NCBI GenBank assembly: GCA_029558515.1
Contig: JAKQEM010000047.1
Coordinates: forward strand, 1-42,476
Source: a bacterium
GTDB taxonomy: Bacteria; Patescibacteriota; Gracilibacteria; Peribacterales; Peribacteraceae
Direction: 5' to 3'
DNA: 42,476 bases
Shown: in pieces, positions 30,269 through 38,461 of the stretch
Layout of the letters: every line of letters begins with the position of its first letter
Position numbering within the stretch: position 1 is the stretch's first letter
Made by a program: the position numbers and the translations under genes
Notes under the pieces: model-generated
Seen by the model: only the letters and a program-made list of their open reading frames with translations
Database searches by the model: none
What the model was told of the DNA's origin: nothing

Positions 30269-30344
30269 GCCGCCGTAGCTCAGCTGGTAGAGCATAGGTA
30301 TCGTAAACCTAGGGTCACCGGTTCAAATCCGGTCGGCGGCTCCA
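30269..30344 (+). tRNA. tRNA-Thr (anticodon CGT)
   Basis: 76 nt with encoded CCA. The acceptor stem is GCCGCCG/CGGCGGC with discriminator T, the D arm GCTC/GAGC, the anticodon stem TAGGT/ACCTA around ATCGTAA (anticodon CGT) and the T arm ACCGG-TTCAAAT-CCGGT. All four arms pair fully. Confidence 0.97.
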
Positions 30345-30660
30345 TGTACCAGAGCACCGCATGCCACAGATCACAATGATCTATGGCTATTTCGCTGACG
30401 CTCATGCGGCGCACGGTACATGGCACGCCACCGACGAACCACATACGCCGTGTTCTGTAACGTACGACCTTTCCTTTCCCGCCCCAGGCGGGGCTGCTCG
30501 AAGAAATCCAATTTTGTTTCCAATCTATTGGCGAGCCGAAGAGGAGAACGAAATGGGTGAATGTCCGGAGCCCAAAAGAATAGTAGTAACCAGATGGTAT
30601 GGGGTCTAAACTACGTTCGTTTATTTTTAGTGAGAGCAAATTAATCCAAAATATGTACGA
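30345..30660. other. Interval between tRNA-Thr and the type III RM operon
   Basis: No convincing gene. An 82-codon frame (30361-30609, +) begins MPQITMIYGYF but has no start signal and no recognised domain. The minus-strand frame across the tRNA is a typical spurious tRNA translation. A short palindrome (GCCCC-AGGC-GGGGC, ~30482-30495) resembles those at 16196 and 37139. No copy of the tRNA 3' end was found downstream, so integration at this tRNA is unproven. Confidence 0.45.
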
Positions 30661-30689
30661 TTGTACACCCTCACTTCATTCGTTATACT
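30661..30689 (+). promoter_or_regulatory. Promoter of the mod-OLD-res operon (leaderless)
   Basis: TTGTAC (30661-30666), a 17-bp spacer, TATACT (30684-30689), then 6 nt to the ATG at 30696. Confidence 0.75.
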
Positions 30690-30695
30690 CTCCAC

Positions 30696-32696
30696 ATGAC
30701 TAAGCCGCAAAAACTCAAAGGCACTTCGCTCAATCCACAGGAAGAACTACTCGCGCTGCTTCGGGCGCAATTCCCCGAGGTATTCAGCGACGGCAAAGTG
30801 GATGCTAAAAAGATCAAGGCGACTCTGGGTGAAGCCGTGGACGTAAACGGTGAACGCTACGGGCTTTCATGGGCTGGGAAAAACGATTGTTTTAGGCACA
30901 TTCAGGAGCCGACGACTGCGACGCTGAAGCCGATGCATGGAGAGTCCGTTGATTTTGAGACGACCAAAAATATCTTCATCGAGGGAGATAACCTTCAGGT
31001 GCTGAAGGTGTTGCAGAAGTCGTACTACGGAAAGGTGAAAATGATCTATATAGACCCGCCGTACAACACCGGTAGCGACAGCTTCATTTACCCGGATCGT
31101 TTTCAGGAATCCAAAGAGGAATACATGGAGCGCATTGGCCAGAAAGAGGAGGGGCATCTAACGCGCGAAGGCATGTGGCAGAAGAATAGTAAGGACAACG
31201 GCCACTATCACAGCAACTGGCTTTCCATGATGTATCCGCGTTTGTTTTTGGCTAGGAATCTCTTGAGGCAGGATGGAGTGATTTTCGTCTCTATTGACGA
31301 CGGTGAAACCGCCAATCTTAAACTTCTTCTCGACGAAGTCTTTGGAGAACAAAACTTTATCGACACAATTGCTGTGGAGATGTCCACAACATCTGGTCCT
31401 AAAACTGTTAATGCACAACAAGGGACAATTGTTAAAAATGTGGAGTTCGTTCACATCTACAGCAAATCAGGCGAGTTCGATCGCACACCTCACACCCCAT
31501 TGCTCGACGGCATTGACTCCTACGACACTCACTACTCCATCTGGATGAATGATGACGGTAGCCTTGGAAACCTCGCAGAGAAGATGGCAAACGATAAAAC
31601 GGTGGGGCAAGAAATCATCCGATATGGATTTTTAGAACGCGAGAAATTTAGCGTCAAGAACATGGATAAACTTCTTTCGGTTTCCGAAGCAGCCAAGTTA
31701 TTCATTAGTGCTAATCTAGACAAGATCGCTCGTATCGATCGAGCACCTGTTGTCGCACAGGGAAGATCTACGCAAGTTGGGCGATGGGAGAGGTTTGAGG
31801 CCGATCACAGAACTTACATTCTTACGACGTTAGAGAGTGGCGCCCTTCAAGCACTAATGCCGCTTTCTCTAAATTACCGGATGTCCGATGATTACAAGCC
31901 CAGATTTGGGAGGACAGTTATCCGTGGTGACCTTTGGAAGGGATTCCATCAAGACATGGGCAACGTTGCGAAGGAGGGTGATACAGAATTTTCGAACGGG
32001 AAAAAACCAGTTCGACTTATCAAGCAATTAATGAGATGGGCAAGCACCACTCACGATGGCATCGTGCTCGACTTCTTCGCAGGATCAGGCACAACCGCCC
32101 ATGCTGTTATGGCACTGAACGCTGAAGTCGATAGCACTCTTCAGTGCATTTCTGTTCAGCTTGACGAGCCATGCGACGAGGCAAGCGAAGCAAAAAAAAC
32201 GGGGTTCCATACGATTGCGGATATCGCGCGGGAGCGTATTCGCCGTGCTGGGAAGAAGATCAAGAAAGAGACTGGCAAGAAGATTGATTATGGTTTCAAG
32301 GCGTTCCGGTTAGAGGAAAGCAACTTCAAAATCTGGCGCAACGATGTAGGAGATGCCGATGCGCTGGCGAAGCAAATGGAAATGTTCATAGATAACGTGA
32401 AGAAGGACAGCACGCAGGAAAATATTCTGTGTGAATTGATGCTGAAAACCGGACTGGATCTCAATACGCCGACCGAGAAAGTGGAACACAAAGCCGGAAC
32501 GTATTTCAAACTAAGCGGCGGCAAGCTCATTGTATGCATTCAGGAAGGCATCACGGAGGCATTGGCAGATAAAGTGTTGGCCGAGAAGCCGGAGAAGTTT
32601 ATCTGTCTGGATAAAGCCTTTGGCGGCAATGACCAATTAAAGACCAACGTTTTGCTCCAGATGGAGCAGGCGGGGGTTGATTTTTCCGTTATCTAA
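30696..32696 (+). CDS. Type III restriction-modification system methyltransferase (Mod)
   Basis: 666 residues. Motif order is that of beta-class N6-adenine methyltransferases: the catalytic DPPYNTG (120-126) precedes the SAM-binding motif LDFFAGSGTTAHAV (~458-470). The target-recognition region lies between, and the C-terminal ~150 residues (from KIDYGFKAFRLEESNFKIW) match the type III Mod tail. Mod methylates one strand of an asymmetric site and directs the Res subunit. It is first in an operon: the OLD-family gene starts 2 nt after its stop and res follows. Composition in its target-recognition region is somewhat AT-richer than its ends. The target sequence cannot be read from the protein. 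Confidence 0.94.
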   Translation: MTKPQKLKGTSLNPQEELLALLRAQFPEVFSDGKVDAKKIKATLGEAVDVNGERYGLSWAGKNDCFRHIQEPTTATLKPMHGESVDFETTKNIFIEGDNLQVLKVLQKSYYGKVKMIYIDPPYNTGSDSFIYPDRFQESKEEYMERIGQKEEGHLTREGMWQKNSKDNGHYHSNWLSMMYPRLFLARNLLRQDGVIFVSIDDGETANLKLLLDEVFGEQNFIDTIAVEMSTTSGPKTVNAQQGTIVKNVEFVHIYSKSGEFDRTPHTPLLDGIDSYDTHYSIWMNDDGSLGNLAEKMANDKTVGQEIIRYGFLEREKFSVKNMDKLLSVSEAAKLFISANLDKIARIDRAPVVAQGRSTQVGRWERFEADHRTYILTTLESGALQALMPLSLNYRMSDDYKPRFGRTVIRGDLWKGFHQDMGNVAKEGDTEFSNGKKPVRLIKQLMRWASTTHDGIVLDFFAGSGTTAHAVMALNAEVDSTLQCISVQLDEPCDEASEAKKTGFHTIADIARERIRRAGKKIKKETGKKIDYGFKAFRLEESNFKIWRNDVGDADALAKQMEMFIDNVKKDSTQENILCELMLKTGLDLNTPTEKVEHKAGTYFKLSGGKLIVCIQEGITEALADKVLAEKPEKFICLDKAFGGNDQLKTNVLLQMEQAGVDFSVI

Positions 32697-32698
32697 AT

Positions 32699-34420
32699 AT
32701 GAAATTTGAGAAACTTAAAATTTACAATTTTCGTTCAGTAGGGCAGGAGGGTGTAACAATTGATTTTGATGAAAACAATAATTTCTACTCATTGATTGGT
32801 TCTAACAATGCTGGGAAATCAAATATTTTGGATGCTCTTGCAGTCGTGCTTGGCCACTGGAAATTCAAAAAATATCAATGGAGTGAAAAAGATTTTTACA
32901 ATTGTCAAATTCATGATTCAGATGGCAAGCCTATCAAGCTAAGAATAGAGCTTTGGCTTCATGAAAGTTCTAGATTTTTTCTAGAAAACGTTTATGGGCA
33001 ATCGGATAAACAGCAACTTGCTGGATTTTCTTTTGAAATAAAAGCATATGAAAAGGAGACTGATAACCATTTTATTGGTCAACTAAAAATCCCAGATCAC
33101 TTTGCGTTTGCACCAAACGGAGAAACGCTGATAATTATGGAAGCAATTAAAAAAAAGGGCAATAACAATGACGAGGCCGAAAATGTTATAAAAAGAAGTC
33201 CCCATCCTGCGTACGCTAAAGATTATTTGTATCGGCTTGGAAACCTGTATTGCTTGGATATTCAGGATTTACATAAATTTTTTAATCCTAAAGGCTACTC
33301 ACCATTTGCTGATATTCTAAAAAACTACAAAAAAGATTTTCCAAATCCAACCAATACTATTGAGTTGCCAGTCACGACTGATGATGGGGTGCAGACTAAG
33401 GAGATGACAAATTTAAAGGCTTTTGAAATGTGGAGTGGGAGAATTAAATCCATTCTTAAAACGAAGATGCTTGGTGAAATTGAACAGAAGCTTGGAGAGA
33501 ACGTTGCCAAATATTTAGGAATACCGAGTAAAGATTTTAGCATCGGTTTTACCGTTCTTGATTTCGAGGAACTATTTGACGAGCTAATGATTTTAAACAC
33601 CAAAGAAAATGATTGCGTTGAACTACCAATAACCAAGAATGGTGCGGGTTATTTGAGCGTACTTCGTTTAGCTGTAATTGAGACTTTGCTATCTATGAAG
33701 GAATTCCCAAATTCTATTTTTATTATTGATGAACCTGAAATATATCTTCATCCGCATCTTGAAAGATTTTTTTACGAAGCAATTAAGAAACTTGCTTCGG
33801 CTGGACATCAGTTTTTCTTTTCTACACATTCAATAAATTTTTTAAGTTTTGAGGATTATCAGAATGTCGTTCGTGTATGTAAGGCCAAAGGAAGCACTCA
33901 CAAGCATCAACCGACCGAGGAATATTCCCTGAAGGAAGTGAACAAATTAGAAAATAAATTTTTAGAAAAGGGCACAAAAGAATTATTCTTTGCCAAAAAA
34001 GTAATTTTAACGGAAGGGAAAGCAGACAGAATAGTTATCAGCTATTTGCTCTCAGACCTATTAAAAATTGACTGTAACTTAAACAGTATTTCCATAGTAG
34101 ATTGTGGAGGGTTAGGAAATTTATCCGATTACAAAAATGTTTGTAGGAGCCTAAGTATTGGCTATTTTCCAGTCATTGATGGGGATAATGAATCGAGTGA
34201 AGCGGCTACAACTCGCAGCGAAATATTGAATGGCTTAAATGATGAAAATTACTATCAACATCCAGATTGTCTCGAAGTATCACTAGGTTTAGAAAAAGGA
34301 AACAAAAAATACAGTAAGTTATTAGAATTGGTTACCGGAAAGACAAAAGAGCAGATACAAACGACTTTCCCAGATGTACAGGCACTTATTACAAAAATTG
34401 AGACCTTCCTAATGGCATGA
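32699..34420 (+). CDS. OLD-family ATPase with TOPRIM nuclease domain
   Basis: 573 residues. The N-terminal ABC-type ATPase half begins MKFEKLKIYNFRSV, with Walker A GSNNAGKSN (34-42), a signature/Walker B around IFIIDEPEIYLHPHLER and the switch His in FFSTHSINFL. The C-terminal TOPRIM domain begins KKVILTEGKADRIV (Glu ~438) and has the acidic VIDGDNESSEA. OLD proteins are phage-defence nucleases, alone or with a UvrD-type helicase as in Gabija. Here the gene sits between mod and res, 2 nt after mod and overlapping res by ATGA. It is much AT-richer than both (hand count 20 G+C in 60 at 33001-33060 against 36 in 60 at 30721-30780), pointing to a separate origin. Confidence 0.9.
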   Translation: MKFEKLKIYNFRSVGQEGVTIDFDENNNFYSLIGSNNAGKSNILDALAVVLGHWKFKKYQWSEKDFYNCQIHDSDGKPIKLRIELWLHESSRFFLENVYGQSDKQQLAGFSFEIKAYEKETDNHFIGQLKIPDHFAFAPNGETLIIMEAIKKKGNNNDEAENVIKRSPHPAYAKDYLYRLGNLYCLDIQDLHKFFNPKGYSPFADILKNYKKDFPNPTNTIELPVTTDDGVQTKEMTNLKAFEMWSGRIKSILKTKMLGEIEQKLGENVAKYLGIPSKDFSIGFTVLDFEELFDELMILNTKENDCVELPITKNGAGYLSVLRLAVIETLLSMKEFPNSIFIIDEPEIYLHPHLERFFYEAIKKLASAGHQFFFSTHSINFLSFEDYQNVVRVCKAKGSTHKHQPTEEYSLKEVNKLENKFLEKGTKELFFAKKVILTEGKADRIVISYLLSDLLKIDCNLNSISIVDCGGLGNLSDYKNVCRSLSIGYFPVIDGDNESSEAATTRSEILNGLNDENYYQHPDCLEVSLGLEKGNKKYSKLLELVTGKTKEQIQTTFPDVQALITKIETFLMA

Positions 34421-37098
34421 AGCTCCATTTCGACCCAAATCAGGCATATCAATTAGATGCAATCAATGCGATTGTGGACATCTTCAGTGGGCAACCGCTG
34501 CAGAAAGGTGACTTTGCCGTGGAGATGAAACAACCCGACGGGCAGATGAAAATTGAGGGCGATTTAGCCATTGGCAATCAATTACTTGTATCACAAGATA
34601 CGATTTGCCGTAACGTCCATGAGATTCAAGTGAGAAATGAAGTGGAAAAATCCGAGGTAACAAGCGGCTTCTTTGAGCCTCACACGATGCCGATGCAGCA
34701 AGAGACACGGCTGACGAATGGGCTCAATTTTTCCATTGAGATGGAAACAGGGACAGGCAAGACGTATGTGTATCTTCGCACCATTCACGAATTGAGCCGC
34801 ACCTACGGTTTCAGGAAATTTGTCATTGTGGTGCCAAGCGTTGCCATCAAGGAAGGTGTGATGAAAAATCTGGAAATCACCAAAGAGCACTTTGGAATGC
34901 TCTATGGAAATCCCGAAATGGACTTCTATGTATATGATCCCAAGAAGCGCGGTTTGCTTCGCCAGTTTGCGACGACCAATGCCCTGCAAATTCTCGTCAT
35001 CAACATAGATTCTTTTGCGAAGGAGGACACGAATATCATCTACCAGAAGAGTGATTGGGGCGTCCCCATTCGTTACGTTCAGGGCGTGAAGCCGGTTGTC
35101 ATCGTGGATGAACCGCAGAATATGGAAACGGACATCCGCAAGAAGGCGATCGAAAACTTGCATCCTCTTTGCACGCTTCGGTACAGCGCAACGCACAAGT
35201 ACCATTACAACTTGATGTACAAGCTCGATCCTGTGAAAGCCTATGACTTGGGACTGGTGAAGAAAATCGAAGTGGATAGCGTGGTGACAGCCGATAACTT
35301 CAATGCCGCGTACGCTCAGTTAAAAGCGGTTACAAGCAGGAAAATGACGGTTACGGCGAAGCTCGTTATTGATATTGCCGATGCAACCAACGTGAAGCGC
35401 AAAGCGGTGACTGTGCGCGTGGGCGCAGACCTGTATGCTCTTTCGGGCAATCGTGAAGTATATCGAGATGGCTTCATCATCGAGGAAATAGACGTAACAG
35501 GACAGTTCATCCGCTTCAGCAACGGTCAGCAACTTTCCGTCGGGCAAATTCAAGGGGAACTCACGGACGATGTGCAGAAGTTTCAAATGAGAAAAGCGAT
35601 TGCCAACCACTTGGAGAAGGAACGAAAAATGGCAGGGCAGGGCATAAAAGTGCTCACATTGTTCTTTATAGACCGCGTGGCGAATTATCGGGACTACGAG
35701 GGAGATACGCTTAAGCAGGGCAAGTTTGCCGTTTGGTTCGAAGAGATTTGTAAAGAAATGATCAGCCGTCCGCAGTTCAAGGATCTCCTGCCTTCTGAAC
35801 TCTCACAGGTGCATAACGGATATTTCTCACAGGACAAGAAGGGCAACTGGAAAGATACGCGAGGAGATACACAGGCAGACGATGACACCTACAGCTTAAT
35901 TATGAAGGAAAAAGAAAAGCTGCTCTCGCTTGATACGCCTCTCAGGTTTATTTTCAGCCACTCTGCTCTGCGCGAGGGGTGGGACAACCCCAATGTGTTT
36001 CAGATTTGTACGTTGAATGAAACCAACTCGGAGATGAAGAAGCGACAGGAAATAGGACGAGGACTGCGCCTGCCTGTGAATCAGGAAGGCAATCGCGTGT
36101 TCGACGAAAACATCAACGTGCTCACGGTGGTTGCCAACGAAAGCTACGACGACTTCGCCCGGAAGCTCCAAAGTGAAATCGAGGAGGATTGCGGTGTAAA
36201 CTTTACTGGTAGAATCAAGAAAAAAGAGGATAGGCGCAAGGTGACACTTCGCAAGGGTTATCAGCTCGACCAGAATTTCAAAGACCTTTGGGAGAAGATT
36301 AAGCACAAAACGAGATATAGAGTGCAGTATTCAACGGAGGAACTCATTGAAAGCGCAGGGCAGACTCTTTCCGAAACTACCATTACGCCTCCGCGCATCC
36401 GTTCCGTACGTGTACAACTGGGCATGTCGCAGGAGGGAGTGGCAGCGTCGCTAAAGTCTGCCGATGAAAAACTGATCCAGGTGGAAATTTCGGCGGTTCC
36501 TGACATTCTTGGGGGAATACAGGGCAAAACCAAATTGAGTCGCGATACGATTTTTAAAATCATCCAGCGTTCGGGGAAACTGAAAGACATACTGAAGAAT
36601 CCGCAGCAGTTTATGGATAACGCGGCTGGCATCATCACGGCAACCATGAAGAAGTTGATGGTGGACGGGATAAAGTATGAGAAAGTCGCAGGGCAGGAAT
36701 GGGAAATGCACTTGTTTGAAAACGACGAATTGGAAGCGTATTTGTCCGATTTGTACACTGTGAAGAAGCCAGAAAAAACGCTCTGGGATTACCTTCAGAT
36801 CGATTCCTCCGTGGAGAGCGTCTTTGCCAAGGATTTGGAAGATCGTGAAGATGTGAAGTTTTTCATCAAATTGCCGTGGTGGTTCAGAATTGATACTCCC
36901 ATAGGCAGCTACAACCCTGACTGGGCTATCGTGTTTGAGAACGACAAGCGTGTGTATTTCGTCGCTGAAACAAAAGGAGAAGGACAGGAATTGCGGGAAT
37001 CAGAGCAGCAAAAAATTGATTGTGGCACAAAACACTTCGCGGAATTTCCAGAGGTGGAATATCGAAGAGTGGCTCATGTAAGTGAGATTACTTTCTAA
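34417..37098 (+). CDS. Type III restriction endonuclease subunit (Res)
   Basis: 893 residues. The SF2 helicase part has motif I METGTGKT (~108-115), a DEAD-like box VIVDEPQN, a late motif HSALREGWDNPNVFQI and motif VI QEIGRGLRLPVN. The C-terminal PD-(D/E)xK nuclease shows NPDWAIVFENDKRVYFVAETKG, with the Asp of PDW and the ExK of AETKG. Res translocates or slides after Mod recognises unmethylated sites and cleaves nearby. Its ATG overlaps the OLD stop (ATGA), so all three proteins should be made from one mRNA in balanced amounts. All expected motifs are intact. Confidence 0.94.
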   Translation: MKLHFDPNQAYQLDAINAIVDIFSGQPLQKGDFAVEMKQPDGQMKIEGDLAIGNQLLVSQDTICRNVHEIQVRNEVEKSEVTSGFFEPHTMPMQQETRLTNGLNFSIEMETGTGKTYVYLRTIHELSRTYGFRKFVIVVPSVAIKEGVMKNLEITKEHFGMLYGNPEMDFYVYDPKKRGLLRQFATTNALQILVINIDSFAKEDTNIIYQKSDWGVPIRYVQGVKPVVIVDEPQNMETDIRKKAIENLHPLCTLRYSATHKYHYNLMYKLDPVKAYDLGLVKKIEVDSVVTADNFNAAYAQLKAVTSRKMTVTAKLVIDIADATNVKRKAVTVRVGADLYALSGNREVYRDGFIIEEIDVTGQFIRFSNGQQLSVGQIQGELTDDVQKFQMRKAIANHLEKERKMAGQGIKVLTLFFIDRVANYRDYEGDTLKQGKFAVWFEEICKEMISRPQFKDLLPSELSQVHNGYFSQDKKGNWKDTRGDTQADDDTYSLIMKEKEKLLSLDTPLRFIFSHSALREGWDNPNVFQICTLNETNSEMKKRQEIGRGLRLPVNQEGNRVFDENINVLTVVANESYDDFARKLQSEIEEDCGVNFTGRIKKKEDRRKVTLRKGYQLDQNFKDLWEKIKHKTRYRVQYSTEELIESAGQTLSETTITPPRIRSVRVQLGMSQEGVAASLKSADEKLIQVEISAVPDILGGIQGKTKLSRDTIFKIIQRSGKLKDILKNPQQFMDNAAGIITATMKKLMVDGIKYEKVAGQEWEMHLFENDELEAYLSDLYTVKKPEKTLWDYLQIDSSVESVFAKDLEDREDVKFFIKLPWWFRIDTPIGSYNPDWAIVFENDKRVYFVAETKGEGQELRESEQQKIDCGTKHFAEFPEVEYRRVAHVSEITF

Positions 37099-37210: not shown

Positions 37211-37239
37211 TTGCAATGAAATCTTGCACATTGTACACT
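37211..37239 (+). promoter_or_regulatory. Promoter of the Panacea antitoxin-toxin operon (leaderless)
   Basis: TTGCAA (37211-37216), a 17-bp spacer, TACACT (37234-37239), then 6 nt to the ATG at 37246. It rules against the longer frame from 37216, which would start inside the -35 box. Confidence 0.75.
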
Positions 37240-37245
37240 GCGCTT

Positions 37246-38115
37246 ATGACTGGCATTTCTCCCAAAGAAATTGGTAGTCGGATTCGGCAACTGCGGATGG
37301 AGAGAGAGCTCTCTCAGGATGATTTGGCAAAAGCGCTTGGCGTGCACCGCCAAACCGTTTCGCTCCTCGAGCAGGGGAAGCGCGAGCTCACGGCGATTGA
37401 GCTTGATACCCTCACAAAATTTTTGCAGATAAGCTACGACGATGTTCTGGCACCGTTGCAGCAAAAACCGAAGGAGAGAACTGCGCAGTCCGGCATGAGG
37501 TTCCAGCCCGAAAAACTGTGCCAACTTCTTCTTACTCTCCTGCAGCAGGTTGGCGGTTTTGCGAACGTAGGGGAGACAGTGCTCTATAAGCTGCTCTATT
37601 TCTGCGACTTCAATCAGTATGAGAAAACGGGACATTCCATTACCGGCATGACGTACAAGCGCATGCAATTTGGTCCCGTGCCGCAATTAAGCCACTTTGC
37701 TCCGGTGATGGAAATGATGCTTCAGAAGAGGCAAGTGGAGAAAGTACAACATGAGTACTACGGCATGCCGCAGACACGGTATATTCCGCTGTGTGATCCA
37801 TCGCCGCATATGCTGAGCGAGGAGGAGCAGTGCACCATTCAGAATGTTGTGAAAGATCTGGGGCACTTGAATGCAACACAAATCGAAGAATATGTTCACG
37901 GCGATGTCCCTTGGGAGGCGACCGAACCGAACAAGGCTATTGATTATGAATTGGTACACTGGAGGACGGAGCCGTATGCGCTGCGGTCGGAAGAAGAAAT
38001 ACTGACCATGGTGCAGGATGCAGCGGCTGCGGACATTGCGAACGATCTTGAACCAATGACAAAGGAAGAATACGCATACTATATGTCTTTGCCCGATCTC
38101 AGTTATGAAGCCTGA
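37246..38115 (+). CDS. HTH-Panacea (DUF4065/SocA-like) antitoxin
   Basis: 289 residues from ATG 37246. An N-terminal XRE-type helix-turn-helix (IGSRIRQLRMERELSQDDLAKALGV, with the recognition helix near HRQTVSLLEQGKREL) is fused to a Panacea domain (LCQLLLTLLQQVGGFANVGE, LLYFCDFNQYEKTGHSITGMTYKRMQFGPVP, then the C-terminal helical region). Panacea is known as a highly promiscuous antitoxin domain that pairs with unrelated toxins. The HTH probably represses its own promoter. The next gene, a MazF-like toxin, overlaps its end by 11 nt. The pair sits directly behind the restriction operon, as addiction modules often do in defence islands. Confidence 0.88.
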   Translation: MTGISPKEIGSRIRQLRMERELSQDDLAKALGVHRQTVSLLEQGKRELTAIELDTLTKFLQISYDDVLAPLQQKPKERTAQSGMRFQPEKLCQLLLTLLQQVGGFANVGETVLYKLLYFCDFNQYEKTGHSITGMTYKRMQFGPVPQLSHFAPVMEMMLQKRQVEKVQHEYYGMPQTRYIPLCDPSPHMLSEEEQCTIQNVVKDLGHLNATQIEEYVHGDVPWEATEPNKAIDYELVHWRTEPYALRSEEEILTMVQDAAAADIANDLEPMTKEEYAYYMSLPDLSYEA

Positions 38116-38461
38116 ATACCGTCTGCAAACCGGAGATATTTGCATGGTGAAGTGTGATCCCAGCGTTGGGAATGAATTTACAGGTATCCGTCCGGCGGTC
38201 GTGGTGCAATCCGCAAAAACGATCCGAAAGGAGGGCGGAGTGGTGACTGTCGCAATTATGACATCCTACAAGGGGAAGAAGTGGAACCATGACCTACTCG
38301 TTCAAAAGAGCGGACACAACGGCCTATGGCACGATTCATTGGTGAAGGTGGAATATCTCTACAGTTTTGACAGGAGCCGGTTTCTCCGAAAAATCGGAGG
38401 CATGGAGGATGAATGGATTGAAAAAATTAAAGAATATCTCAAGGCGCATTTCGATTTATAG
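38105..38461 (+). CDS. MazF/PemK-family toxin
   Basis: 118 residues. The MazF-type SH3-like fold shows LQTGDICMVKCDPSVGNEFTGIRPAVVVQ, with the GDI strand and the RPAVVV strand that carries the conserved Arg, then VAIMTSYKG and HDLLVQKSGHNGLWHDSLVKVEYLYSFDR. The family cleaves mRNA at short sites. Its gene overlaps the antitoxin's by 11 nt (ATG at 38105, antitoxin stop at 38113-38115). Pairing of a MazF-like toxin with a Panacea antitoxin rather than MazE is the notable point. Confidence 0.85.
   Translation: MKPEYRLQTGDICMVKCDPSVGNEFTGIRPAVVVQSAKTIRKEGGVVTVAIMTSYKGKKWNHDLLVQKSGHNGLWHDSLVKVEYLYSFDRSRFLRKIGGMEDEWIEKIKEYLKAHFDL

Follow-up and report, generated by a model that had tools for sequence, protein, structure and literature searches.

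The window, that is, the whole 42,476-nucleotide stretch of DNA analysed here, is contig JAKQEM010000047.1 (assembly GCA_029558515.1) from a bacterium of the family Peribacteraceae, and it contains three intact, co-directional genes in the order mod, OLD, res (Table 1). OLD begins 2 nt behind mod and shares a 4-nt ATGA overlap with res; this arrangement, with its coordinates and strand, had been described in an earlier sequence-only reading and is borne out throughout. Mod contains an N6_N4_Mtase domain with the motifs DPPYNTG (residue 120) and DFFAGSGTT (residue 459), motif IV preceding motif I, and Res contains ResIII and RE_endonuc domains, in which GTGKT, DEPQ, SATH and PD...ETK were found. 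By their adjacency, their domains and their conserved motifs, mod and res constitute a type III restriction-modification system. Systems of this type methylate one strand of an asymmetric site, and Res requires two inverted sites. The tight packing of the genes suggests that mod, OLD and res are carried on one transcript.

Table 1. Features of the mod-OLD-res locus, and slot regions of related loci that contain genes without a Pfam match
Feature	Coordinates	Strand	Evidence
tRNA-Thr(CGT)	30269..30344	+	ARAGORN; adjoins dprA in family genomes; cassette begins 3' of tRNA
Promoter-like site TGTACA-16-TATACT overlapping inverted repeat TGTAC-GATT-GTACA	30654..30689	+	Consensus match only
mod, type III DNA methyltransferase, 666 aa	30696..32696	+	PF01555, 4.1e-30; PADLOC MTase_III, 3.5e-172, 572 bits; motifs
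OLD, Class 1-like ABC ATPase + TOPRIM nuclease (predicted), 573 aa, embedded cargo	32699..34420	+	PF13175, PF20469; PADLOC Old, 1.3e-47; PDB 6p74, 3.1e-26; AF2/Foldseek top match 6p74
res, type III restriction endonuclease (SF2 translocase + PD-(D/E)XK), 893 aa	34417..37098	+	PF19778, PF04851; PADLOC REase_III, 2.9e-295, 980 bits
HTH + Panacea (SocA-like) antitoxin/regulator, same low-GC cassette	37216..38115	+	PF13274, PF01381; in-frame ATG 37246 is the likely start
MazF/PemK-like toxin, overlaps antitoxin gene	38105..38461	+	PF02452, 1.8e-18
Slot regions with Pfam-less genes	L142:7934-9965, L030:7811-9118, L144:8815-10046, L029:7208-7993, L146:1764-2558		

The product of the embedded gene is a full-length Class 1-like OLD protein and a predicted nuclease. 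Its N-terminal ABC ATPase (AAA_15) contains Walker A at residues 34-41, a Walker B-like DEPE at 344-347 and the H-loop histidine in STHS at 375-378, and its C-terminal OLD-like_TOPRIM domain exhibits the E...DxD pattern with E439/D443 and D494/D496. The TOPRIM is fused to the ATPase, and neither a downstream UvrD-like helicase nor a retron RT accompanies it, as in Class 1. The earlier statement that the catalytic motifs are intact in all three proteins holds with one reservation, namely that the leading position of the metal-B pair of OLD is probably occupied by Cys524 (E526 is kept), in a region where the alignment is uncertain and the AF2 pLDDT is about 50-56. Class 1 OLDs are characterized by an S/D-x-E metal-B pair and a catalytic basic residue. 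The leading position of the pair is S478 in Thermus scotoductus OLD (Ts OLD) and D541 in P2 Old (PMC7049728). Among the PADLOC models, Old matched best, followed by GajA. Ts OLD (6P74) is the closest solved protein (E = 3e-26 with a single sequence, 1e-68 with a profile) and also ranked first in Foldseek (E = 2e-19) with an AF2 model of moderate quality (pLDDT 63, pTM 0.62; whole-chain TM 0.42-0.46), which supports the family assignment only; the strongest phage match is P2 Old (E = 2e-16). These two proteins resemble the window OLD in being single chains of similar length that combine an ABC ATPase and a TOPRIM, and their metal-A residues corresponding to E439, D494 and D496, together with D443, are kept in it. 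However, the window OLD is about 20-25% identical to them, probably has Cys524 where they have Ser or Asp and is embedded in a type III operon, whereas they are solitary. OLD is without a close relative in the sample, since its best matches among 287 genomes of the phylum are 25-35% identical; none at 40% identity or closer was found, and OLD alone as a query returned no relative from the viral contigs.

Upstream of mod, the sigma-70-like site (30662-30689) ends 7 nt before the ATG, and the mod transcript is possibly leaderless. The single promoter of the sequence-only reading is represented by this candidate, which overlaps a perfect inverted repeat (TGTAC-N4-GTACA, 0.01 expected) but scores only 9/12 and belongs to a class of sites present at chance frequency (13 found in the region versus 12.3 expected). 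Two copies of the 9-mer ATTGTACAC are present in the window, against 0.11 expected: one at 30660-30668 as part of the inverted repeat, the other at 37230-37238 just 5' of the likely start of the HTH-Panacea gene. The HTH-Panacea/MazF-like pair (37216-38461) lies directly behind res, and its HTH protein may control both the mod operon and the HTH-Panacea operon. ATTGTACAC is absent from the relative L142, in which a MazF-like gene (39%) with an S24-peptidase-like partner is also located downstream of res.

The site between mod and res was compared in 80 type III loci from species-level genomes, 64 from viral contigs and further ones from Patescibacteria genomes and plasmids; the loci were picked by Res similarity and hence are no random sample. 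With the window excluded, this slot was occupied by at least one gene in 64 of 149 readable pairs, from many phyla and from viral contigs, and 126 of the 173 junctions in occupied slots overlap or lie within 30 nt. Among the 85 pairs without an insert, mod and res are directly coupled (within 30 nt) in 74. Since the filled slots contain unrelated genes, mostly of defence or effector families, the slot is not accidental. The nearest relatives of the window Res (60-65% identity: L142, L029, L030, L031, L144 and L145) have different genes in the slot without exception, in part as two-gene cassettes common to several of them. The cargo turns over faster than the mod-res core, and unrelated genes fill the slot again and again beside a core that persists, which is the pattern of embedded cargo. 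Res relatives within the same class, in L147, L149 and L150 (G318, G435 and G487), read with many in-frame TGA codons; genomes that seem to recode TGA thus bear this type III family as well.

The cargo was labelled by Pfam and PADLOC on cluster representatives, other members being assigned by BLAST clustering. SLFN_AlbA_2 proteins were found at nine loci, YhcG/DUF1016 PDDEXK nucleases, RhuM and OLD-type ABC ATPases at six each, GmrSD and Bro-N at four each, Fic at three and an IetA-IetS pair at one (L032), and many slot genes are without a match. The pair in L032, a Patescibacteria genome, is a complete IetA-IetS (AAA ATPase and subtilase) between mod and res (L032:3338-7088). Recurrent slot genes of Patescibacteria of about 243-257, 163-175 and 261-267 aa are without a meaningful Pfam match and are candidate effectors. 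The six other slots with OLD-type ABC ATPases contain no fused ATPase-TOPRIM like the window OLD: an ABC ATPase is accompanied by a DUF4276 gene in an Aeromonas plasmid (L047), an Elusimicrobia locus (L065) and a Flavobacteriaceae locus (L072) and by a second gene matching NsnC in Alistipes (L094), and it stands without a recognised TOPRIM in two Patescibacteria loci (L035 and L070). DUF4276, which we take to be a TOPRIM relative, contains the VEG..E motif. The pair in L047 and the DUF4276 gene in L072 match PADLOC HEC-01 (HEC-01A/B).

OLD-type ABC ATPases account for 6 of 104 slot genes versus 7 of 1236 other genes of the same loci (about 10-fold, p = 2e-4), and for 6 of 54 versus 7 of 506 when genes of at least 300 aa are compared (p = 6e-4), both tests being made without the window locus on loci picked by Res similarity. 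In a FastTree tree of Res, which has some long branches, the seven loci with an OLD-type ABC ATPase, the window included, need seven changes, and well-supported branches force all of them. The OLD-type ABC ATPases have thus been shown to reach the slot independently. The sequence-only reading had named as one refutation that the gene order might occur in this genome only. This is the case for the fused OLD, as the 149 further mod/res pairs contain no second mod-OLD(fused)-res locus; yet in unrelated bacteria the slot repeatedly contains OLD-type ABC ATPases. No plasmid record covered 80% of the concatenated mod, OLD and res, and of the 12 genomes of the phylum sample with a strong Res, the window genome alone has a fused OLD beside it. 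Neither mod nor res was found next to 78 viral OLD loci, and OLDs are therefore generally not tied to type III systems. In L073, L104 and L119 fused OLDs are located beside rather than inside mod-res, as would also be expected from general defence clustering.

The GC content is 0.481 in mod, 0.347 in OLD and 0.476 in res, and GC3 is 0.56, 0.31 and 0.58, respectively, in agreement with the earlier remark that OLD is AT-richer than its neighbours. The cassette as a whole looks horizontally acquired, because it is GC-poor relative to the host flanks (about 58-62%), lies 3' of tRNA-Thr(CGT) and carries the Panacea/MazF-like pair; OLD looks like a second acquisition inside it. Throughout the family dprA adjoins tRNA-Thr(CGT); the sequence beyond the tRNA differs among genomes. 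Integration at the tRNA is unsupported, since no repeat of the tRNA-Thr 3' end (att site) was found within the window. OLD lies 13 GC points under mod and res, a larger gap than in all but one of the other 64 slot inserts. On average those inserts are 2 GC points poorer than the two genes around them, with 41 of the 64 lower (p = 0.0015), so the large mismatch of OLD indicates a recent arrival here more than it reflects a rule. The earlier proposal that OLD was inserted into a pre-existing mod-res operon gains support from this GC gap, from the different slot genes of the nearest Res relatives and from the direct coupling of most insert-free pairs.

Embedding itself is known from type I, Hma and BREX loci; the combination of a type III system with OLD appears to be new. 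Payne et al. reportedly presented guilt-by-embedding candidates (HEC/PDC) in a 2024 preprint. Our full-text literature search for type III systems together with DUF4276 or genes between mod and res returned nothing relevant, that preprint being outside its scope. According to the papers that cite it (PMC12988326, PMC11411939), the embedding principle is established. By the same papers' descriptions, the HEC/PDC candidates and TgvAB are, like the window OLD, defence genes nested in multi-gene DNA-modification systems, and HEC-01A/B homologues occur in the mod-res slot here; the described hosts that were checked differ, being Hma and type I loci. Two other systems, PrrC and PARIS, have been described as 'RM guardian systems' (PMC12707154): PrrC is encoded within a type IC locus and becomes active once restriction is inhibited, and PARIS combines an OLD-ABC protein with a nuclease of the TOPRIM type and responds to Ocr (PMC12707154, PMC12839542). 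For BREX loci, OLD-ABC/TOPRIM modules have been proposed to act as backup effectors (PMC12839542), the same effector family in a modification-based locus, although the host system is BREX instead of type III. PrrC in EcoprrI resembles the window OLD in that its gene, too, codes for an effector and lies within a restriction operon, but the locus is of type IC and the product a tRNA anticodon nuclease. In PARIS, as predicted for the window OLD, an ABC ATPase of the OLD type controls a TOPRIM nuclease, and PARIS is functionally tied to anti-restriction proteins; it consists, however, of two genes (AriA and AriB) located elsewhere than between mod and res, whereas the window OLD is a single fused gene and its operon has no separate TOPRIM gene. 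The TOPRIM family of PARIS is DUF4435, and the split slot cases have DUF4276 instead.

The best explanation, to which we assign a probability of about 0.5, is that the mod-res junction is a docking slot for an exchangeable second defence gene and that the Class 1-like OLD is a co-expressed second-layer effector. It draws on the gene order, the intact motifs, the foreign composition of OLD, the recurrent use of the slot and the independent arrival of OLD-type ABC ATPases, and would extend these, by analogy with PrrC in its type I locus and with PARIS, to co-transcription, nuclease activity, a backup role and a trigger. Mod would mark the host DNA and Res would cut unmarked invading DNA, while OLD, made from the same transcript, would be held inactive by its own ABC ATPase module. 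A phage that evades or inhibits restriction, or abnormal DNA, might then switch this module, whereupon the TOPRIM would cut nucleic acid and stop phage production, possibly stopping the cell as well. A second-line effector role is plausible and in keeping with the other slot cargo, and by analogy OLD may guard restriction. A tentative, rather doubtful extension is that the type III junction evolved as a plug-in site for restriction-monitoring effectors and that OLD would physically sense an inhibited or stalled Mod-Res and fire its TOPRIM, as a type III counterpart of PrrC. The uniqueness of the exact order and the fused OLDs located beside mod-res count against the docking-slot and backup reading, and the ability of embedded systems to act independently and of Class 1 OLDs to work alone counts against a backup role.

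There is a strong rival, to which we concede a substantial though lesser probability: OLD, like P2 Old, would be a Class 1 defence gene that works alone, using the operon only for expression and mobility and neither sensing nor needing restriction. It is strong because TgvAB, which lies within a type I locus of V. cholerae, is protective alone (PMC11411939). Moreover, the nearest known proteins, Ts OLD and P2 Old, are single-gene systems, and the varied slot genes with their unrelated chemistry argue against a common mechanism. On the other hand, the tight coupling and the surplus of OLD-type ABC ATPases among slot genes relative to flanking genes suggest a benefit of the inside position, and effectors that respond to the loss of restriction are already known in PrrC and PARIS. 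The sequence-only reading had offered as one option a Gabija-like complex, in which Res would lend OLD its helicase or translocase activity within a joint nuclease machine. GajA is indeed an OLD nuclease homologous to the window OLD, and Res is an SF2 translocase. However, GajB is an SF1 UvrD-like helicase, the cassette has neither a UvrD/GajB gene nor any other helicase partner gene, GajA ranks below the stand-alone Class 1 OLDs in both sequence and fold, and most mod-res pairs either have no OLD or contain slot genes that function without a helicase; such a partnership was rejected as the main reading and is improbable. Equally slight is the chance that OLD, with the adjacent Panacea-MazF pair, stabilizes a mobile cassette by killing cells that lose it: expression of P2 Old is lethal to a sensitive E. 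coli strain (PMC7049728) and a toxin-antitoxin pair adjoins the operon, but OLD has no paired antitoxin-like gene and the other slot cargo is mainly of defence or effector families. Least probable of all is an incidental, functionless insertion, with which the single occurrence of the exact order and the GC mismatch of a recent arrival would agree, since OLD is full-length, free of stop codons, retains its key motifs and fits precisely between the stop and start codons of its neighbours.

The junction of mod and res in type III systems acts as a slot in which effectors, OLD-type ABC ATPases included, have been exchanged repeatedly and independently. The naturally occurring cassettes, which share a core but differ in cargo, could be used to distinguish guarding of the restriction enzyme from riding along, and the slot offers a route to new effectors, several of its recurrent genes being without a Pfam match. 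Here a small-genome bacterium carries an intact OLD in this position, and the junction resembles a bay whose second-line defence gene can be exchanged.
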